64,000 nucleotides of DNA. Source: Bordetella genomosp. 9 (GTDB taxonomy: Bacteria; Pseudomonadota; Gammaproteobacteria; Burkholderiales; Burkholderiaceae_B). The position numbers and the translations under genes were made by a program. The notes under the pieces were generated by a model. The model was given only the letters and a program-made list of their open reading frames with translations, was not told the DNA's origin and did not search any database. Positions within the stretch are counted from its first letter, which is position 1, and the number at the start of each line of letters is the position of its first letter. Shown in pieces: positions 14,972 to 20,685 of the stretch. Location of the stretch: the NCBI RefSeq assembly GCF_002261425.1, contig NZ_NEVJ01000001.1, forward strand, positions 744,001-808,000, read 5' to 3'.

Positions 14972-15895
14972 ATGCAGGACCTGAACGATCTCTACTACTT
15001 TTCCCAGGTCATCGAATACGGTGGGTTCAGCGCCGCGGCGCGGGCGCTGAACGTCCCCAAGTCCAGGCTGTCGCGGCGTATCGCCGAGCTGGAGGCCAAC
15101 CTGGGCGTGCGGCTGCTCCAGCGCAGTACGCGACGGCTGCGCCTGAGCGCGGCGGGTGAGCGCTACCTGCAGTATTGCCGGGAGATCTCCGCGGCCGCGC
15201 GCGCGGCCAACGACGCCATGCTGCACATGAAGGCGGCGCCTTCGGGTCCCGTGCGCGTGAGCTGCCCGGTCGCCATCGCGCAGGGGATGGTGGCGCCGAT
15301 CCTGCCCGAATTTCTCGATGCCTGGCCGGACATCCGGGTCGAGCTGCTGGTGACCAATCGCCGCATCGATCTGATCGCCGAAGGCGTCGACCTGGCGATC
15401 CGCGTTCGCGAGCGCTTGAACACCGATGCCGATTTCGTGGTGCGGCACCTGGGCCAGGCGTCGGGATGCCTGGTGGCCAGCCCCGGCTATCTGCAGCGCT
15501 GGGGCCAGCCCGCCGACGTGCAGGACCTGGCTGAACATGCCGCCCTGCATTTCGCGGCGCCGGGCGAAGCGCCGCGCTGGACGCTGCTGGACGAGCATGA
15601 CGTCCAGGTCGACGTGCCGATCAGGCCGGTCCTGGTGTGCAACGATTTCACGGTGCTGGTGGAGGCCGCGTTGAAAGGGCGCGGCATCGCCTTGCTGCCG
15701 GTGACCGCCACGCACGAGGAACGACGCCAGGGCCGGCTGGTGCATGTGCTGCCGGAATGGCGGTCGCAGACCGGCATCCTGCATTGCATCTATCCGTCGC
15801 GCCACGGCATGACGCCCGCCGTGCGCGCCATGCTGGATTTCCTGACCGAGCGGTTGAAGACGTCCTTCCAGCAGCAGTCATTAGACCTGGCCTAG
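14972..15895 (+). CDS. LysR-family regulator of azoR
   Basis: 307 aa. The HTH (residues 1-60: DLNDLYYFSQVIEYGGFSAAARAL, then PKSRLSRRIAELE) is typical of the group that controls quinone reductases and pirins. The effector domain spans about 90-300. It is divergent from azoR and linked to it by the palindromic operator in the shared intergenic region. Its stop overlaps the stop of the convergent UdgX-fusion gene by 4 bases. Confidence 0.93.
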   Translation: MQDLNDLYYFSQVIEYGGFSAAARALNVPKSRLSRRIAELEANLGVRLLQRSTRRLRLSAAGERYLQYCREISAAARAANDAMLHMKAAPSGPVRVSCPVAIAQGMVAPILPEFLDAWPDIRVELLVTNRRIDLIAEGVDLAIRVRERLNTDADFVVRHLGQASGCLVASPGYLQRWGQPADVQDLAEHAALHFAAPGEAPRWTLLDEHDVQVDVPIRPVLVCNDFTVLVEAALKGRGIALLPVTATHEERRQGRLVHVLPEWRSQTGILHCIYPSRHGMTPAVRAMLDFLTERLKTSFQQQSLDLA

Positions 15896-17421
15896 GGCAG
15901 GGCCAGGGCCTGGTCCGACAGATCGCGGGCGCGGCAGAGCGCGCGCGCGATGCCGGCGACGATTTCTTCGCGCGCTTCGGCGTCGTCCACCCGCAAGGCA
16001 TAGGAAGGGTGCCAGGTGGCGACCAGCCAGGCGTCGCCCAGCCTGACCGGCGCGTCCAGATAATCCCGCATGCTGACCTTGCGATGCAGGAGCGCGCCCA
16101 GCGCAGTGGCGCCCAGGGTGACGATCACGGCAGGCCGTACGCGCGCCAGTTCTTCTTCCAGCCAGTGCGCGCAGGCATCCACTTCCTGCTGGGCGGGGGT
16201 TTTGTGCATGCGCCGCTTGCCCCGAGGAAACCACTTGAAGTGCTTGACCGCATTGGTCAGGAAGAGGTCCTGGCGGGGTACGTCGGCGCGCTGCAGGGCT
16301 TCGTTCAACACCTGCCCCGCCGGCCCGACGAAAGCGCGGCCCGCCAGGTCTTCCTGGTCGCCCGGTTGTTCGCCCACCAGCATGATGCGGGCGTCCGCCG
16401 GCCCTTCGCCCGCCACGGCTTGCGTGGCATGGCGCCAGAGTTCGCAGCGACGGCATTCGTCCAGGGTGGTCGGCGCCGGACGGGCCGGCTGGGCGCGCCG
16501 CGCGTCGACGGCCACCTGCTTGCCGCCCATCGCGCCCACGGTGTTGGCCTGCGCCACGCGGCGCGCGCCGTTGCGTGCGTCGGCGATCATGCCGGGGATC
16601 AGGGGGCCTTCCGGCAGTCCTTTCCAGAAGCGCACCGGCATTTGCCGGTGCAGGGCGCTTTCGTTCAGCCGCGCGGGATTGAAGATGTTCCGGTAGTAGG
16701 CCAGCCACAGCGGTTCGGCCTGGTCGCGCGCGGCGCCGGCGCGTATCGCATCGGCGTCGGGCGGCGCGTTGGTCAGGTGCAGCGCCTGGCCATCCCATAG
16801 CGCGGCGCCCTGTGGGGTGCCGATCAGCCAGGACGATTTGCCCATGCGGCGCGCGAAGTGTTCGGCGGCGTAGGCCAGGACGTCGTGGTCGGGTTCGTAC
16901 CACGCCCGGTACTCAGGCATCGTGCCCGGCTCGCCCTGATGGAAACGCACGTAGGCGATCATGTCGTGCTTGGCGCGCCGCACCGATTTGGCCATGGCGT
17001 GCAGTTGCTGGCCGTCTTCGTCCGCCGCCGACTCCACCGCGCGATCGCCTTGCTGCCAGCGCCACAGTACCCGGTAAAGGAAGGCCCAACGGCGCGGCGA
17101 ACGAAAGAGCGCGGCGTCCTGCAGCAGCGTCGCGAGGCTCCTGGAAATGCGTACGGCGGGCGCCGGGGCCCCGGCCGCCGGGGTGTCCGGTGCGGCCGGT
17201 GCGTCCGCTGGATCCTGTGCCTTGGCCGGCGCGGCGTGGACGTCGCCCGCCGCGTAGTCGAGCGACATCTGCTCGGCTCCGCCGCCGCCCGGCAGCGGCA
17301 GCTGTTCTACCCACGTTACGGCTTCCGGCGGCCAGCCACGGGCAAGCGCGCGCAGCGCCAGATCGCGCCAGCCTGCATAGCCGTCCTGTACCGTCAGTGT
17401 CGGCGACGGAGCGTCCTTCAT
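15892..17421 (-). CDS. DUF4130 (TIGR03915-type) - UdgX uracil-DNA glycosylase fusion
   Basis: 509 aa two-domain protein. Residues 1-275 match the 'probable DNA metabolism protein' partner (DUF4130), with an Ala/Pro-rich insertion at about 62-90. Residues 315-509 are a family 4-like uracil-DNA glycosylase of the UdgX type. Visible there are C323 and C326 (likely iron-sulfur ligands, with C417), the GEQPGDQED motif at 350-358, the R-loop KRRMH at 402-406 and HPS at 471-473. In mycobacterial UdgX the histidine of the equivalent KRRIH forms a covalent bond with the deoxyribose of excised uracil; His406 is retained here. It overlaps the radical SAM gene by 4 bases and is presumably co-expressed from its LexA-boxed promoter. 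Confidence 0.9.
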   Translation of the reverse strand: MKDAPSPTLTVQDGYAGWRDLALRALARGWPPEAVTWVEQLPLPGGGGAEQMSLDYAAGDVHAAPAKAQDPADAPAAPDTPAAGAPAPAVRISRSLATLLQDAALFRSPRRWAFLYRVLWRWQQGDRAVESAADEDGQQLHAMAKSVRRAKHDMIAYVRFHQGEPGTMPEYRAWYEPDHDVLAYAAEHFARRMGKSSWLIGTPQGAALWDGQALHLTNAPPDADAIRAGAARDQAEPLWLAYYRNIFNPARLNESALHRQMPVRFWKGLPEGPLIPGMIADARNGARRVAQANTVGAMGGKQVAVDARRAQPARPAPTTLDECRRCELWRHATQAVAGEGPADARIMLVGEQPGDQEDLAGRAFVGPAGQVLNEALQRADVPRQDLFLTNAVKHFKWFPRGKRRMHKTPAQQEVDACAHWLEEELARVRPAVIVTLGATALGALLHRKVSMRDYLDAPVRLGDAWLVATWHPSYALRVDDAEAREEIVAGIARALCRARDLSDQALALP

Positions 17422-18641
17422 AGCAACGATAATTGCTGGGGCGCCTGCGTGAGCGAACGCCGCAATTGCTCGGAAGGCGGCTCGGCCAGGCTCGGCCGAT
17501 AATCCTGCACCACGATGAAAGGCTTGACCTTGTCCATCGCGCAGCGTAGTCGCACCAGGTCCTGGTAGCGCACCGCCCGCAGCCGGCGCAGATCGGCCAG
17601 CCGCTTGGCGTTGCGCATGCCTATGCCCGGTACGCGCGCGATCAGCTGCTGCGGCGCGCGGTTGATGTCCACCGGGAAGGATTCGCGGTGCGCCAGGGCC
17701 CAGGCCAGCTTGGGATCGATGTCCAGCGGCAGGTCGCCCGCGCCGGGCAGCAATTCTTCCGCGCGGAATCCGTAGCCGCGCAGCAGGAAGTCGGCCTGAT
17801 ACAGGCGGTGTTCGCGCAGCAGCGGCGGCGCTTGCGCGGGCAGGGCGGTGGGACTGTCCGGTATGGGGCTGAACGCGGAGTAGTACACGCGCTTGAGCTT
17901 GTAGGAGCCGTACAGCGTCTGCGCCGTCTGCAGGATGGTGCGGTCGTCGGCGTCGTCCGCGCCCACGATCATCTGGGTACTCTGGCCCGCCGGCGCATGG
18001 CGCGGCGGCCGCTTGGCGCCCTTGGCTTCTTCCTGCGCGGTTTCCTGGTCCAGGCGGATGGAGCCCATGGCGCGCTTGATCGTATGGGCGCTCTTTTCCG
18101 GCGCCAGCCGCTGCAGGCCGCCATCGGTGGGCAACTCGATGTTGACGCTCAGGCGATCGGCGTACCGGCCCGCTTGCGAGATCAGCTTGGGATCGGCATC
18201 GGGGATGGTTTTCAGGTGGATGTAGCCGCGGAATTGATGGTCTTCGCGCAGTGAGCGCGCCACGTGCACCAGCTGCTCCATGGTGTAGTCCGCGCTGCGG
18301 ATGATGCCGGAGCTCAGGAACAGGCCGTCGATATAGTTGCGGCGGTAGAAATCCATGGTCAGGTCGACCACTTCGCGCGGCGCGAAGCGGGCGCGCGGCA
18401 CGTTGCTGGACCGCCGATTGACGCAGTACTGGCAGTCGTACTGGCAGAAATTGGTCAGCAGGATTTTCAGCAGCGAAACGCAGCGCCCGTCCGGCGTGAA
18501 GCTGTGGCAGATGCCCGCGCCCGTGCTCGCCCCCAGACCGTCAAGCCCGCGGCTGTCCCGCTTGGGGGCGCCGCTGCTGGCGCAGGACGCGTCGTATTTG
18601 GCCGCGTCCGCAAGGATTTCCAGCTTGGTAAGCAGTTCCAT
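17418..18641 (-). CDS. putative DNA modification/repair radical SAM protein (TIGR03916-type)
   Basis: 407 aa. The radical SAM cluster motif CX3CX2C is C66, C70, C73 (FCQYDCQYC). Three further cysteines lie upstream (C20, C45, C54), possibly for an auxiliary cluster. A C-terminal helix-hairpin-helix (about 325-365: INRAPQQLIARVPGIGMRNA) is a non-specific DNA-binding element. The family is distantly related to spore photoproduct lyase and is found next to DUF4130/UdgX genes, but its reaction is unknown. The downstream fusion gene overlaps it by 4 bases. A TATAAT box and a LexA-like box lie 13-36 bases upstream, pointing to SOS induction. No clear ribosome site precedes the ATG. Confidence 0.9.
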   Translation of the reverse strand: MELLTKLEILADAAKYDASCASSGAPKRDSRGLDGLGASTGAGICHSFTPDGRCVSLLKILLTNFCQYDCQYCVNRRSSNVPRARFAPREVVDLTMDFYRRNYIDGLFLSSGIIRSADYTMEQLVHVARSLREDHQFRGYIHLKTIPDADPKLISQAGRYADRLSVNIELPTDGGLQRLAPEKSAHTIKRAMGSIRLDQETAQEEAKGAKRPPRHAPAGQSTQMIVGADDADDRTILQTAQTLYGSYKLKRVYYSAFSPIPDSPTALPAQAPPLLREHRLYQADFLLRGYGFRAEELLPGAGDLPLDIDPKLAWALAHRESFPVDINRAPQQLIARVPGIGMRNAKRLADLRRLRAVRYQDLVRLRCAMDKVKPFIVVQDYRPSLAEPPSEQLRRSLTQAPQQLSLL

Positions 18642-18654
18642 GGCAGAGGATATG

Positions 18655-18670
18655 CTGTGTTTATATCCAG
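18655..18670. promoter_or_regulatory. LexA/SOS box
   Basis: Read on the minus strand the site is CTGGATATAAACACAG, which has the CTG-N10-CAG frame and matches the E. coli SOS consensus CTGTATATATATACAG at 13 of 16 positions. It ends 13 bases before the start codon of the radical SAM gene and begins one base after the TATAAT box. Bound LexA would therefore cover the transcription start. Confidence 0.7.
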
Positions 18671-18671
18671 T

Positions 18672-18677
18672 ATTATA
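18672..18677 (-). promoter_or_regulatory. -10 box of the radical SAM/UdgX operon
   Basis: TATAAT on the minus strand, a perfect -10 hexamer in otherwise GC-rich DNA, 30 bases upstream of the start codon. No good -35 hexamer is found at 16-18 bases further upstream, where the sequence is already the end of the DUF2945 gene, so the promoter may be weak or depend on other contacts. The predicted start site falls inside the LexA-like box. Confidence 0.5.
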
Positions 18678-18692: not shown

Positions 18693-18902
18693 CTAGCGCG
18701 TCTTCTTCAAGGCCTCGGCCTTATGAATCGCCGTCTTGCCGGTACGAGCGCTTTTCACCTCATATTGCGGGTGATCCGGCGACGCCTTCGCCACATGGCC
18801 GCCAGCCTTCGACGTCCCCGTCACCTTCCGCGTAACGGTGCCTTCCGTCCGCCCCTGTGAGGTCTCCCACTGGACCTTGTCGCCCTTCGAAAGATTGGCC
18901 AT
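18693..18902 (-). CDS. DUF2945 (hypervirulence-associated TUDOR-like) small protein
   Basis: 69 aa. The pattern KGDKVQWETSQGRTEGTV, then VKSARTGKTAIHKAEAL is that of DUF2945, a small beta-barrel SH3/TUDOR-like fold common in proteobacteria. It is basic and cytosolic. The ATG at 18902 has a GGAG ribosome site at 8 bases; an in-frame extension to 19016 adds a Cys/Arg-rich leader with no homology features. Its stop lies 16 bases upstream of the radical SAM promoter box. Function unknown. Confidence 0.82.
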   Translation of the reverse strand: MANLSKGDKVQWETSQGRTEGTVTRKVTGTSKAGGHVAKASPDHPQYEVKSARTGKTAIHKAEALKKTR

Positions 18903-19031
18903 GCCGCAACTCCACAAACGCGGCGCCGGGCGGCCGCGGTTCCGGCCACCGACGCAATACGCATGCCGCAGGAGAACTCGATTGGTCGCCTGCGGTTTGG
19001 TCTGATTTTTCTGCATTGGGCGCCCGCAACC

Positions 19032-19078: not shown

Positions 19079-19672
19079 ATGCAATGGTTGAGCGAACAAA
19101 TCCTGGCTTATGCCGACACCCTGCCGGAAGGTGCCCCCATTTCGGCCAAGAGCCTTCTGCACCTCGGCAATCGCGCCGCGGTGGATCAGGCCTTGTCACG
19201 GTTGACCGCGCGCGGACGGTTGATACGCGCGGGACGTGGGATTTATCTTCGGCCGGTCCCCACCCGCTTTGGCGTCAGGGCCCCTTCCGTCCAGCAGGCA
19301 GTCGACGCGCTCGCCACTCAGCGTGGTGAGGTGATCGTGTCGAGCGGGGCGGCGGCTGCCAATACGCTTGGGCTGACGACACAGGTGCCCGTTCGCGCCA
19401 TTTATCTGACTTCCGGTCGCAGCCGGAAAATGAATTTCGGCAAACAGGTCATAGAACTGCGCCATGCGCCGCGGTGGCAACTCGCGCTCGCCGACAAGCC
19501 TGCTGGCGAGGCTGTGCGGGCTCTGGCCTGGCTGGGACCAGAAAGGGCGGAGTCCGCGTTGAAAACACTGAAGCGCAGACTCGCTCCGAGCAGCTTTAAC
19601 GAATTGGTCGCCGCGGCGCCGCGGTTGCCCACCTGGCTTGCGCGCAGCGTAGGGAAGGTTGCGTATGGCTGA
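19079..19672 (+). CDS. AbiEi-like antitoxin (DUF6088, type IV TA)
   Basis: 197 aa. An N-terminal winged helix-turn-helix (about residues 1-65, 'PISAKSLLHLGNRAAVDQALSRLTARGRLIRAGRGIYL') is followed by a C-terminal antitoxin domain, as in AbiEi/DUF6088 proteins that repress their own operon. It counteracts the downstream nucleotidyltransferase toxin without direct complex formation in the studied type IV systems. AGGAG is at 6 bases from the ATG. The stop overlaps the toxin start by 8 bases. The gene looks less GC-rich than its surroundings, which suggests horizontal acquisition. Confidence 0.87.
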   Translation: MQWLSEQILAYADTLPEGAPISAKSLLHLGNRAAVDQALSRLTARGRLIRAGRGIYLRPVPTRFGVRAPSVQQAVDALATQRGEVIVSSGAAAANTLGLTTQVPVRAIYLTSGRSRKMNFGKQVIELRHAPRWQLALADKPAGEAVRALAWLGPERAESALKTLKRRLAPSSFNELVAAAPRLPTWLARSVGKVAYG

Positions 19673-20685
19673 CGCATTCCTTGAGCTTTCGGCTGGCGAC
19701 CGTCGCGATGTGCTGGGCGTTGCGGCCGACAGGACGGGGCGGCCAGCTCACCTTCTGGAAAAGGACATTTGGGTAGTGTGGGCGCTGTCAATCCTCTATG
19801 GGTCGGCACTCGGCGAACATCTGGTATTCAAGGGCGGTACGTCGCTGTCGAAAGCCTATGGGGTCATTCGTCGATTTTCGGAAGAAGTTGATCTGACCTA
19901 CGATATTCGATCCATCGTGCCGGACATGACGGATCACGAGGGTGAGGCGCTGCCAAGAACCCGTAGCGAAGAAAAGCGGTGGTCGTCGGAAGTGCGCAAG
20001 CGCCTTCCGGAGTGGGTTGCCGGGACAGCGAAGCCGATCATCGTGGATGCGCTGCAGGCCGACGCACTACCTGCTGCGGTGCGCACCGAGGGCGAAAAGC
20101 TGTACCTAGACTACGAGCCCACGGTCGGCGGTTCAGGCTATGTGGCACCAAGCGTGATGCTCGAATTTGGCGCGCGCTCGACTGGAGAACCCGCGAGTCC
20201 ACGCGCAGTGGCTTGCGATGCATCTGATGTTGTGGAAGGCGTGGCGTTTCCCACCGCACGTCCTCGCGTGATGCACGCCGAACGTACCTTTTGGCAAAAA
20301 AACCACGGCGATCCACGTGTTCTGCTTGCAGGAGCGCCTCCGGGGTGACCGATTCGCGCGGCACTGGCATGATGTCGTGCGGCTGGATGAGGCGGGCCTC
20401 GCAGATGCGGCGTTCGCGGATCGTGAGCTGGCGAATGCCGTTGCCAGGCATAAAGGTATGTTCTTCGCCGAGAAAGCCGCCGATCGAACTTCGATCGATT
20501 ACACCGCAGCTGTGAGCGGTGGCTTGCACCTCGTACCAGACGGGGTGGCGTTCAAAGCCTTGCAGGACGACTACGCACGCATGGTCGAGGATGGGCTGCT
20601 GCTGGACGATGCCGAGCCGTTCGAAGAACTCATGAAACAATGCGCCGATATCGCCGTTCGGGCCAATCTCGCTACCCCGCCATAG
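19665..20685 (+). pseudogene. AbiEii-like nucleotidyltransferase toxin, frameshifted
   Basis: The first part (19665-20348) has the nucleotidyltransferase core: FKGGTSLSK at residues 55-63 and the acidic motif SEEVDL (D76). The frame then breaks at a run of seven A (20296-20302), and the rest of the protein (from about 20303 to 20685, with FCLQERLRGDRFARHWHDV) continues in the +1 frame. Removing one A gives a continuous 339 aa protein with a smooth junction (ERTFWQKTTAIHVFCLQ), a normal AbiEii length. It is either a real frameshift inactivating the toxin, a homopolymer sequencing error, or a tract corrected by slippage. The ATG at 19665 (AGGGAAGG upstream) is preferred to the TTG at 19659. Confidence 0.85.

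Follow-up and report, generated by a model that had tools for sequence, protein, structure and literature searches.

The operon and its operator

The DNA analysed here, a 64-kb window of the Bordetella genomosp. 9 genome, contains a two-gene operon on its minus strand that encodes a radical S-adenosylmethionine (SAM) protein and a fusion of DUF4130 with UdgX, a uracil-DNA glycosylase (UDG). The first gene is preceded by a −10-like hexamer and by an operator of the LexA type. A preliminary description of the locus had proposed SOS control, and comparison with homologous operons strongly supports that proposal, making control of the radical SAM–DUF4130–UdgX operon by LexA very probable. The positions given there for the TATAAT hexamer, the box, the two genes and their 4-base overlap agree exactly with the sequence. 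The elements of the operon are as follows.

18672–18677, minus strand: −10-like hexamer TATAAT, assigned from the sequence.
18670–18655, minus strand: LexA-type operator CTGGATATAAACACAG, one base from the −10 hexamer and ending 13 nt before the start codon; kept at homologous operons.
17418–18641, minus strand: radical SAM gene, 407 aa, TIGR03916 (rSAM_link_UDG; 560 bits, cut-off 343.5).
18480–18584, minus strand: invariant Cys20, Cys45 and Cys54, candidate ligands of a second Fe–S cluster (41 of 41 aligned homologues).
18423–18446, minus strand: CX3CX2C cysteines Cys66, Cys70 and Cys73, expected to hold the SAM-binding 4Fe–4S cluster (41 of 41 aligned homologues).
17583–17675, minus strand: helix-hairpin-helix-like motif, residues 323–353 (HHH_3, 20.3 bits).
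15892–17421, minus strand: fused DUF4130–UdgX gene, 509 aa, sharing 4 bases at its start with the radical SAM gene.
16609–17391, minus strand: TIGR03915/DUF4130 part, residues 11–271, the regular partner (179.2 bits, cut-off 112.25).
15946–16602, minus strand: TIGR03914 UdgX domain, residues 274–492, accessory (243.9 bits, cut-off 189.95).
16204–16218, minus strand: UdgX R-loop KRRMH, residues 402–406, with the presumed cross-linking residue His406.

The operator lies directly before the radical SAM gene, which starts at 18641, and matches CTGTATATATATACAG at 13 of 16 positions. This match, first noted as a fit to the LexA frame, is real, and it is significant when the full consensus or a profile is used. 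The bare frame CTG-N10-CAG is common, with 16 matches in the window versus 19.7 expected, an insignificant difference. A frame match alone is therefore poor evidence and was dropped as such; it would also be compatible with a box that arose by chance before a housekeeping operon. The full sequence argues against chance. CTGGATATAAACACAG is the sole 16-mer in the 64 kb that lies within three mismatches of CTG(TA)5CAG, where 0.01 would be expected, and only 1 of 100 shuffled sequences held such a 16-mer. When scored with a profile of boxes from homologous operons (50 non-redundant sequences, the window left out), CTGGATATAAACACAG reaches 20.65 bits and the next-best 16-mer of the window 9.27 bits; in 150 Markov simulations, each of 64 kb, 20.65 bits was never attained. 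Upstream conservation is concentrated in the box (1.3 bits per position, versus 0.34 and 0.23 in the flanks), and similar hexamers (TATAAT, TACAAT, TAGAAT and TATACT) occupy the −10 place in several homologues. Taken with the conservation of the box at homologous operons, these results leave a chance origin extremely improbable.

Conservation was measured in the best 80 genome loci among the matches listed which, with the window, give 81 operons. In 77 of the 81, CTG-N10-CAG occurs in the 60 nt before the gene, versus 220 of 14551 background 60-nt stretches. The other four are L027, with a two-mismatch box farther upstream and a degenerate box nearer the gene, L048, with a degenerate box, and the Xanthomonadaceae loci L079 and L080. 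Absence of the box at close homologues had been named beforehand as the outcome that would speak against SOS control, and it was not seen: among 151 sampled genomes from the family to which Bordetella genomosp. 13 belongs, the radical SAM gene is over cut-off in 21, and 20 of these operons have the box (L094 does not).

The box changes in type across the phylum. The radical SAM gene is over cut-off in 31 genomes of a 200-genome phylum sample, of which 30 loci were fetched, the remaining one being Bordetella genomosp. 13 (G001). These 30 comprise 22 with GTTC-N7-GTTC in either direction, 6 with CTG-N10-CAG, 1 with the palindrome GTCTCA-N5-TGAGAC described below and 1 with none. The available passages of PMC9578287 give GTTC-N7-GTTC as the LexA box of Caulobacter. 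Among 145 distinct operons, 140 have a box (99 CTG, 22 GTTC, 2 with both and 17 palindrome), counting sites up to 160 nt before the KYD codon with at most five mismatches for the CTG type and one for the palindrome; among 6676 background stretches the corresponding numbers are 4, 11 and 0 for CTG, GTTC and palindrome. The type follows lineage, with CTG-N10-CAG in beta- and gammaproteobacteria, GTCTCA-N5-TGAGAC in Xanthomonadaceae and GTTC-N7-GTTC in operons that we presume to be alphaproteobacterial on the evidence of their box type and their place in the protein tree. On a tree of 41 radical SAM proteins, labelled by hand from their upstream sequences, the box types need three changes, the minimum for four labels, versus a mean of 14.9 for shuffled labels; related rows of the tree inflate the latter contrast, so the change count carries more weight than the shuffle.

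The LexA box of betaproteobacteria is of the type CTGT-N8-ACAG. The window box is a better-than-chance CTG-N10-CAG palindrome at a promoter and is kept before orthologues, with the caveat that its left half-site is CTGG rather than the commoner CTGT. The LexA regulon was read in the relative Bordetella genomosp. 13 rather than in the window's own genome. Six sites there lie within three mismatches of the consensus, versus one for the reversed-pattern control: at the radical SAM operon, at lexA, at imuA, near the start of a UvrD/PcrA-like helicase gene, and near KDPG aldolase and HD phosphohydrolase genes. Seven further genomes gave 9–19 sites versus 0–4 in the control. The lexA gene of Bordetella genomosp. 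13 (L082) carries CTGTATATACATACAG, the same type of box as that of the window. The LexA-like boxes near the KDPG aldolase and HD phosphohydrolase genes (L084 and L086) are recorded as side observations.

The departure from CTGT could indicate that the operator is bound by a LexA paralogue or another palindrome-binding repressor instead of canonical LexA, and two LexA regulons are described for some other bacteria (P. putida and X. axonopodis; PMC9578287, available passages). We consider this improbable, as the lexA gene of Bordetella genomosp. 13 has the same box type and the copy of the radical SAM operon in that species also has a CTGG half-site. We are confident, from these comparisons, in the regulatory part of our reading, in which the two genes would form a LexA-repressed, DNA-damage-inducible operon.

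Two neighbours of the operon were also considered. A small gene with an Hva1_TUDOR domain (18693–19016, minus strand) has its stop codon 15 nt before the −10 hexamer. Among the best 80 loci, such a gene stands immediately before the operon in L001 and L003 alone, the match in L074 being far off; the box therefore belongs with the operon and not with the Hva1_TUDOR gene. Divergent open reading frames (ORFs) at 19079–20685 on the plus strand resemble an AbiEi/AbiEii-type toxin–antitoxin pair, the second gene of which is apparently split in two ORFs.

The radical SAM–DUF4130 core and the UdgX domain

The radical SAM protein belongs to the TIGR03916 family, exceeding its curated cut-off and containing the CX3CX2C motif, and TIGR03916 is its only NCBIfam match at E ≤ 0.001. 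It does not match TIGR04070, the photolyase-type profile for spore photoproduct lyase (SplB). The six invariant cysteines suggest two Fe–S clusters. Foldseek and VIA rows shown for the model contain radical SAM barrels only, and a PDB profile search with the family alignment returned no match at E ≤ 0.01.

The partner protein exceeds the curated cut-offs of both TIGR03915/DUF4130 and TIGR03914. Its UdgX domain has GEQPG at residue 350, the R-loop at 402–406 and HPS-x3-R at 471; the residue described earlier as a retained His406 is indeed the R-loop histidine. This histidine and Arg404 are present in 27 of 27 aligned partners, which were chosen by the motif GE[QAS]PG (the long partner L123, without the motif, was left out), and the working residues of UdgX look intact where the domain is present. 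For the partner model, the 50 Foldseek rows shown all align with its UDG domain; they comprise one phage polymerase and otherwise UDG-type structures. UdgX entries share 46–50% identity with the domain in these alignments. An apparent shortfall of the fourth cluster cysteine was dropped, since the Mycobacterium smegmatis (Msm) sequence has the same pattern in that stretch. The UdgX R-loops of L012, L016 and L142, two of them Pseudomonas, contain an insertion (RGGPNSRA.TR-x-H) in which both His and Arg are retained. Bordetella genomosp. 13 (G001:C19:150197) and Cupriavidus plantarum (G002:C2:191859) each encode, elsewhere in the genome, another UdgX domain that scores over cut-off.

The radical SAM and DUF4130 families are distributed together. 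In the phylum sample, the 31 of 200 genomes with a TIGR03916 match over cut-off are exactly those with a TIGR03915 match over cut-off (lists compared by eye). UdgX passes its cut-off in 29 of the 200, 23 with the pair and 6 without it, and is missing from 8 of the 31 pair-bearing genomes. The next ORF starts before the radical SAM stop codon in 74 of the best 80 loci, from mechanical calls that favour early starts. Downstream of the radical SAM gene, 29 of these 80 loci have GEQPG, indicating UdgX, and in 50 the partner is short but complete (275–324 aa) and lacks GEQPG; L054 is cut by a contig end. Four of the short partners were scanned with profiles, and TIGR03915 was found in all four. Of the 50 short-partner loci, 49 keep CTG-N10-CAG, the exception being L048.

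Because radical SAM and DUF4130 share the same genomes while UdgX is often missing, the conserved unit, as judged from sequence, is the radical SAM–DUF4130 pair, and it is this unit that the SOS box accompanies. The three activities had been proposed to act as one concerted system. That proposal is partly supported, in that the pair is near-invariant and UdgX is not. Since the box persists where UdgX is absent, the SOS link tells little about either uracil removal or the trapping of abasic sites in themselves. It is conceivable that UdgX is the point of the operon, with damage-induced uracil excision and covalent abasic-site capping as its function and the radical SAM and DUF4130 proteins assisting in the preparation or release of the cross-link. 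The frequency of UdgX in pair-bearing genomes, its position beside DUF4130 by coordinates in 22 of 23 (on another contig in G364) and its invariant R-loop residues would fit this idea, as would a suggestion in the available passages of PMC8565304 that UDGs of the SOS response handle misincorporation by SOS-induced polymerases. UdgX over cut-off is nevertheless absent genome-wide from 14 of 14 tested short-partner genomes, three of which gave a weak match of ~29 bits, while operon and box persist, and it occurs without a radical SAM gene in the 6 genomes noted above. We therefore regard UdgX as unlikely to be the operon's purpose. Attention should centre on the radical SAM enzyme together with DUF4130 rather than on UdgX, and pseudomonads without UdgX offer a clean system.

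The GTCTCA-N5-TGAGAC palindrome of Xanthomonadaceae

The radical SAM gene is present in 18 genomes of a 60-genome Xanthomonadaceae sample, and GTCTCA-N5-TGAGAC lies at all 18 operons (11 exact, five with one mismatch, L197 with two and L201 with three). The exact palindrome is found in 41 of the 60 genomes and the reversed control in none. Exact sites number 75 in the 60 genomes and three in G264, giving 78, of which 75 were read; three at the radical SAM operon (G377, G387 and G426) were left out. (The palindrome loci are L079, L080, L130, L146–L160, L161–L190 and L197–L250.)

The sites read include 22 before a DEAD-box helicase gene with a partial TIGR03817/HRQ1-type match, nine before the radical SAM gene, three before recA, one before uvrA and ten before mraZ. 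Profile scans of genes downstream of the remaining 30 identified RmuC (three), Lhr (two), DUF763 (two), Cas3 (one) and Cas9 (one), with no recognisable repair gene among the others looked at. In G264, one-mismatch palindromes lie at the UmuD gene of umuDC and at a PA0069-type gene. The mraZ sites (L161, L165, L178, L188, L220, L231, L234, L240, L242 and L244) are located 87–228 nt upstream, mostly with an AT-rich centre, and may represent a different signal. G424 (L223) has two nearby Cas3-like ORFs, each with an exact palindrome ~60 nt before its start; the first, when scanned, is Cas3. This many-contig assembly has seven palindrome sites, one at recA, and its best LexA match, at 49.9 bits, is below cut-off.

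The 11 lexA genes over cut-off in eight palindrome-bearing genomes mostly carry other boxes: five have TTAGTAGTA..TACTACTAA-like and five GTACA-N2-TGTAC-like sequences, and no recognised box was seen upstream of lexA in L251. Two-mismatch look-alikes of the palindrome do precede two of the lexA genes, L195 and L251. They count against a regulator other than LexA and leave room for a LexA-type regulator of the palindrome. GTCTCA was not found in a narrow multi-term search of the open-licence literature, and an SOS-like regulon under GTCTCA-N5-TGAGAC is apparently undescribed; the palindrome provides a testable sequence for such a possible regulon in Xanthomonadaceae. We give roughly even weight to the broader view that radical SAM–DUF4130 is a core damage-response module re-wired in each lineage, to LexA through CTG boxes, to LexA through GTTC boxes, and in xanthomonads to an SOS-like palindrome regulon under a regulator that is not canonical LexA.

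Proposed mechanism and relation to known systems

In the mechanism we propose, LexA dimers would occupy the box at 18655–18670, over the likely transcription start, and block RNA polymerase. Self-cleavage of LexA, driven by RecA after damage, would free the promoter, and the 4-base overlap would allow both proteins to be made in coupled fashion. The radical SAM protein and DUF4130 would form the working core. Where UdgX is fused, its conserved residues suggest that it would remove uracil or a uracil-like product, with His406 serving to cap the abasic site.

The helix-hairpin-helix-like part toward the C-terminus and the six invariant cysteines suggest a DNA-acting radical SAM protein with two Fe–S clusters. 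We tentatively propose that it applies a 5′-deoxyadenosyl radical to a damaged or modified DNA base, with DUF4130 as a recognition or co-catalytic partner. A somewhat less probable alternative is that the enzyme installs a modification, for example sulfur or methyl, on nucleic acid or protein in the damage response and is not a repair enzyme. The match to MiaB would be in keeping with this but is generic for radical SAM barrels, as biotin synthase and NifB also rank; confidence in the modelled cysteine region is low (residues 18–53 partly at a predicted local distance difference test score, pLDDT, of <50); and the helix-hairpin-helix-like part and the UDG fusion point to DNA.

Several observations weigh against the proposal of a LexA-controlled radical SAM–DUF4130 module that acts on DNA. 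No good −35 hexamer was seen at ~17 nt spacing from TATAAT, and recA is not among the six sites of Bordetella genomosp. 13. Five of the 145 operons have none of the three boxes (L048, L094, L116, L197 and L201), L197 by the one-mismatch criterion, and a known LexA-type box is found in 0 of the 18 xanthomonad operons. In G241, a DUF4130 remnant (C1:5486827-5487696; a profile match of 49.2 bits, below cut-off, with an in-frame stop) lies right before a UdgX gene, and there is no radical SAM match. The HHH_3 match, at 20.3 bits, is under the Pfam cut-off of 27, and DNA is a putative substrate of the radical SAM protein. The regulatory evidence nonetheless takes the little-studied TIGR03916 family a step beyond hypothetical status: in most of the carrier Proteobacteria examined, it is probably damage-inducible.

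The operon resembles several known systems. For the comparison we take COG4277 to be the TIGR03916 radical SAM family. A two-gene COG1573–COG4277 operon is part of Bacteroidetes SOS networks in the available passages of PMC8565304, which also cite reports that a UDG-based system is SOS-controlled in Verrucomicrobia and Alphaproteobacteria. Both there and here, a uracil-DNA glycosylase gene and a presumed TIGR03916 gene stand under a LexA box. The Bacteroidetes LexA motifs differ (GGA-N5-TCC and CTAA-N5-TTAG), and DUF4130, the regular partner here, is absent from the main text of that paper, as far as available. A figure legend in PMC3765255 places DUF4130 in an SOS context and links it with both radical SAM proteins and uracil-DNA glycosylases, as we find; the radical SAM partners there are called SplB-like, whereas the family here is TIGR03916, and the available passages give no operator.

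The UdgX domain shares GEQPG, the KRR-x-H loop and the HPS motif with Msm UdgX (PMC10359453 and PMC10776899, available passages; 6ajo and further structures), for which the covalent cross-linking reaction has been shown with H109 (PMC10359453). It differs in being fused behind DUF4130 in one operon with the radical SAM gene, the solved Msm chains having 205–229 residues. SplB shares with our protein the link of a radical SAM enzyme to DNA repair or SOS (PMC8565304, available passages). SplB and PA0069-type proteins nevertheless form separate profile families: the window protein matches TIGR03916 only, and the PA0069-type protein of L155 matches NF033668. PA0069 of P. aeruginosa, considered as a LexA-regulated member of the TIGR03916 family, was dropped because PA0069-type proteins have their own profile.

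The preliminary description had presented the system as unknown. This holds for the chemistry; the gene association and the SOS regulation of the presumed same pair are in print, as the available passages of PMC3765255 and PMC8565304 indicate. SOS control of the beta- and gammaproteobacterial radical SAM operons was not found in searches of the open-licence literature. Since SOS control of the presumed same pair has been reported in the passages of PMC8565304, novelty is limited: the kind of system is already known, as far as these passages show, and new here are the beta- and gammaproteobacterial cases, the radical SAM–DUF4130 pairing and the dispensability of UdgX.

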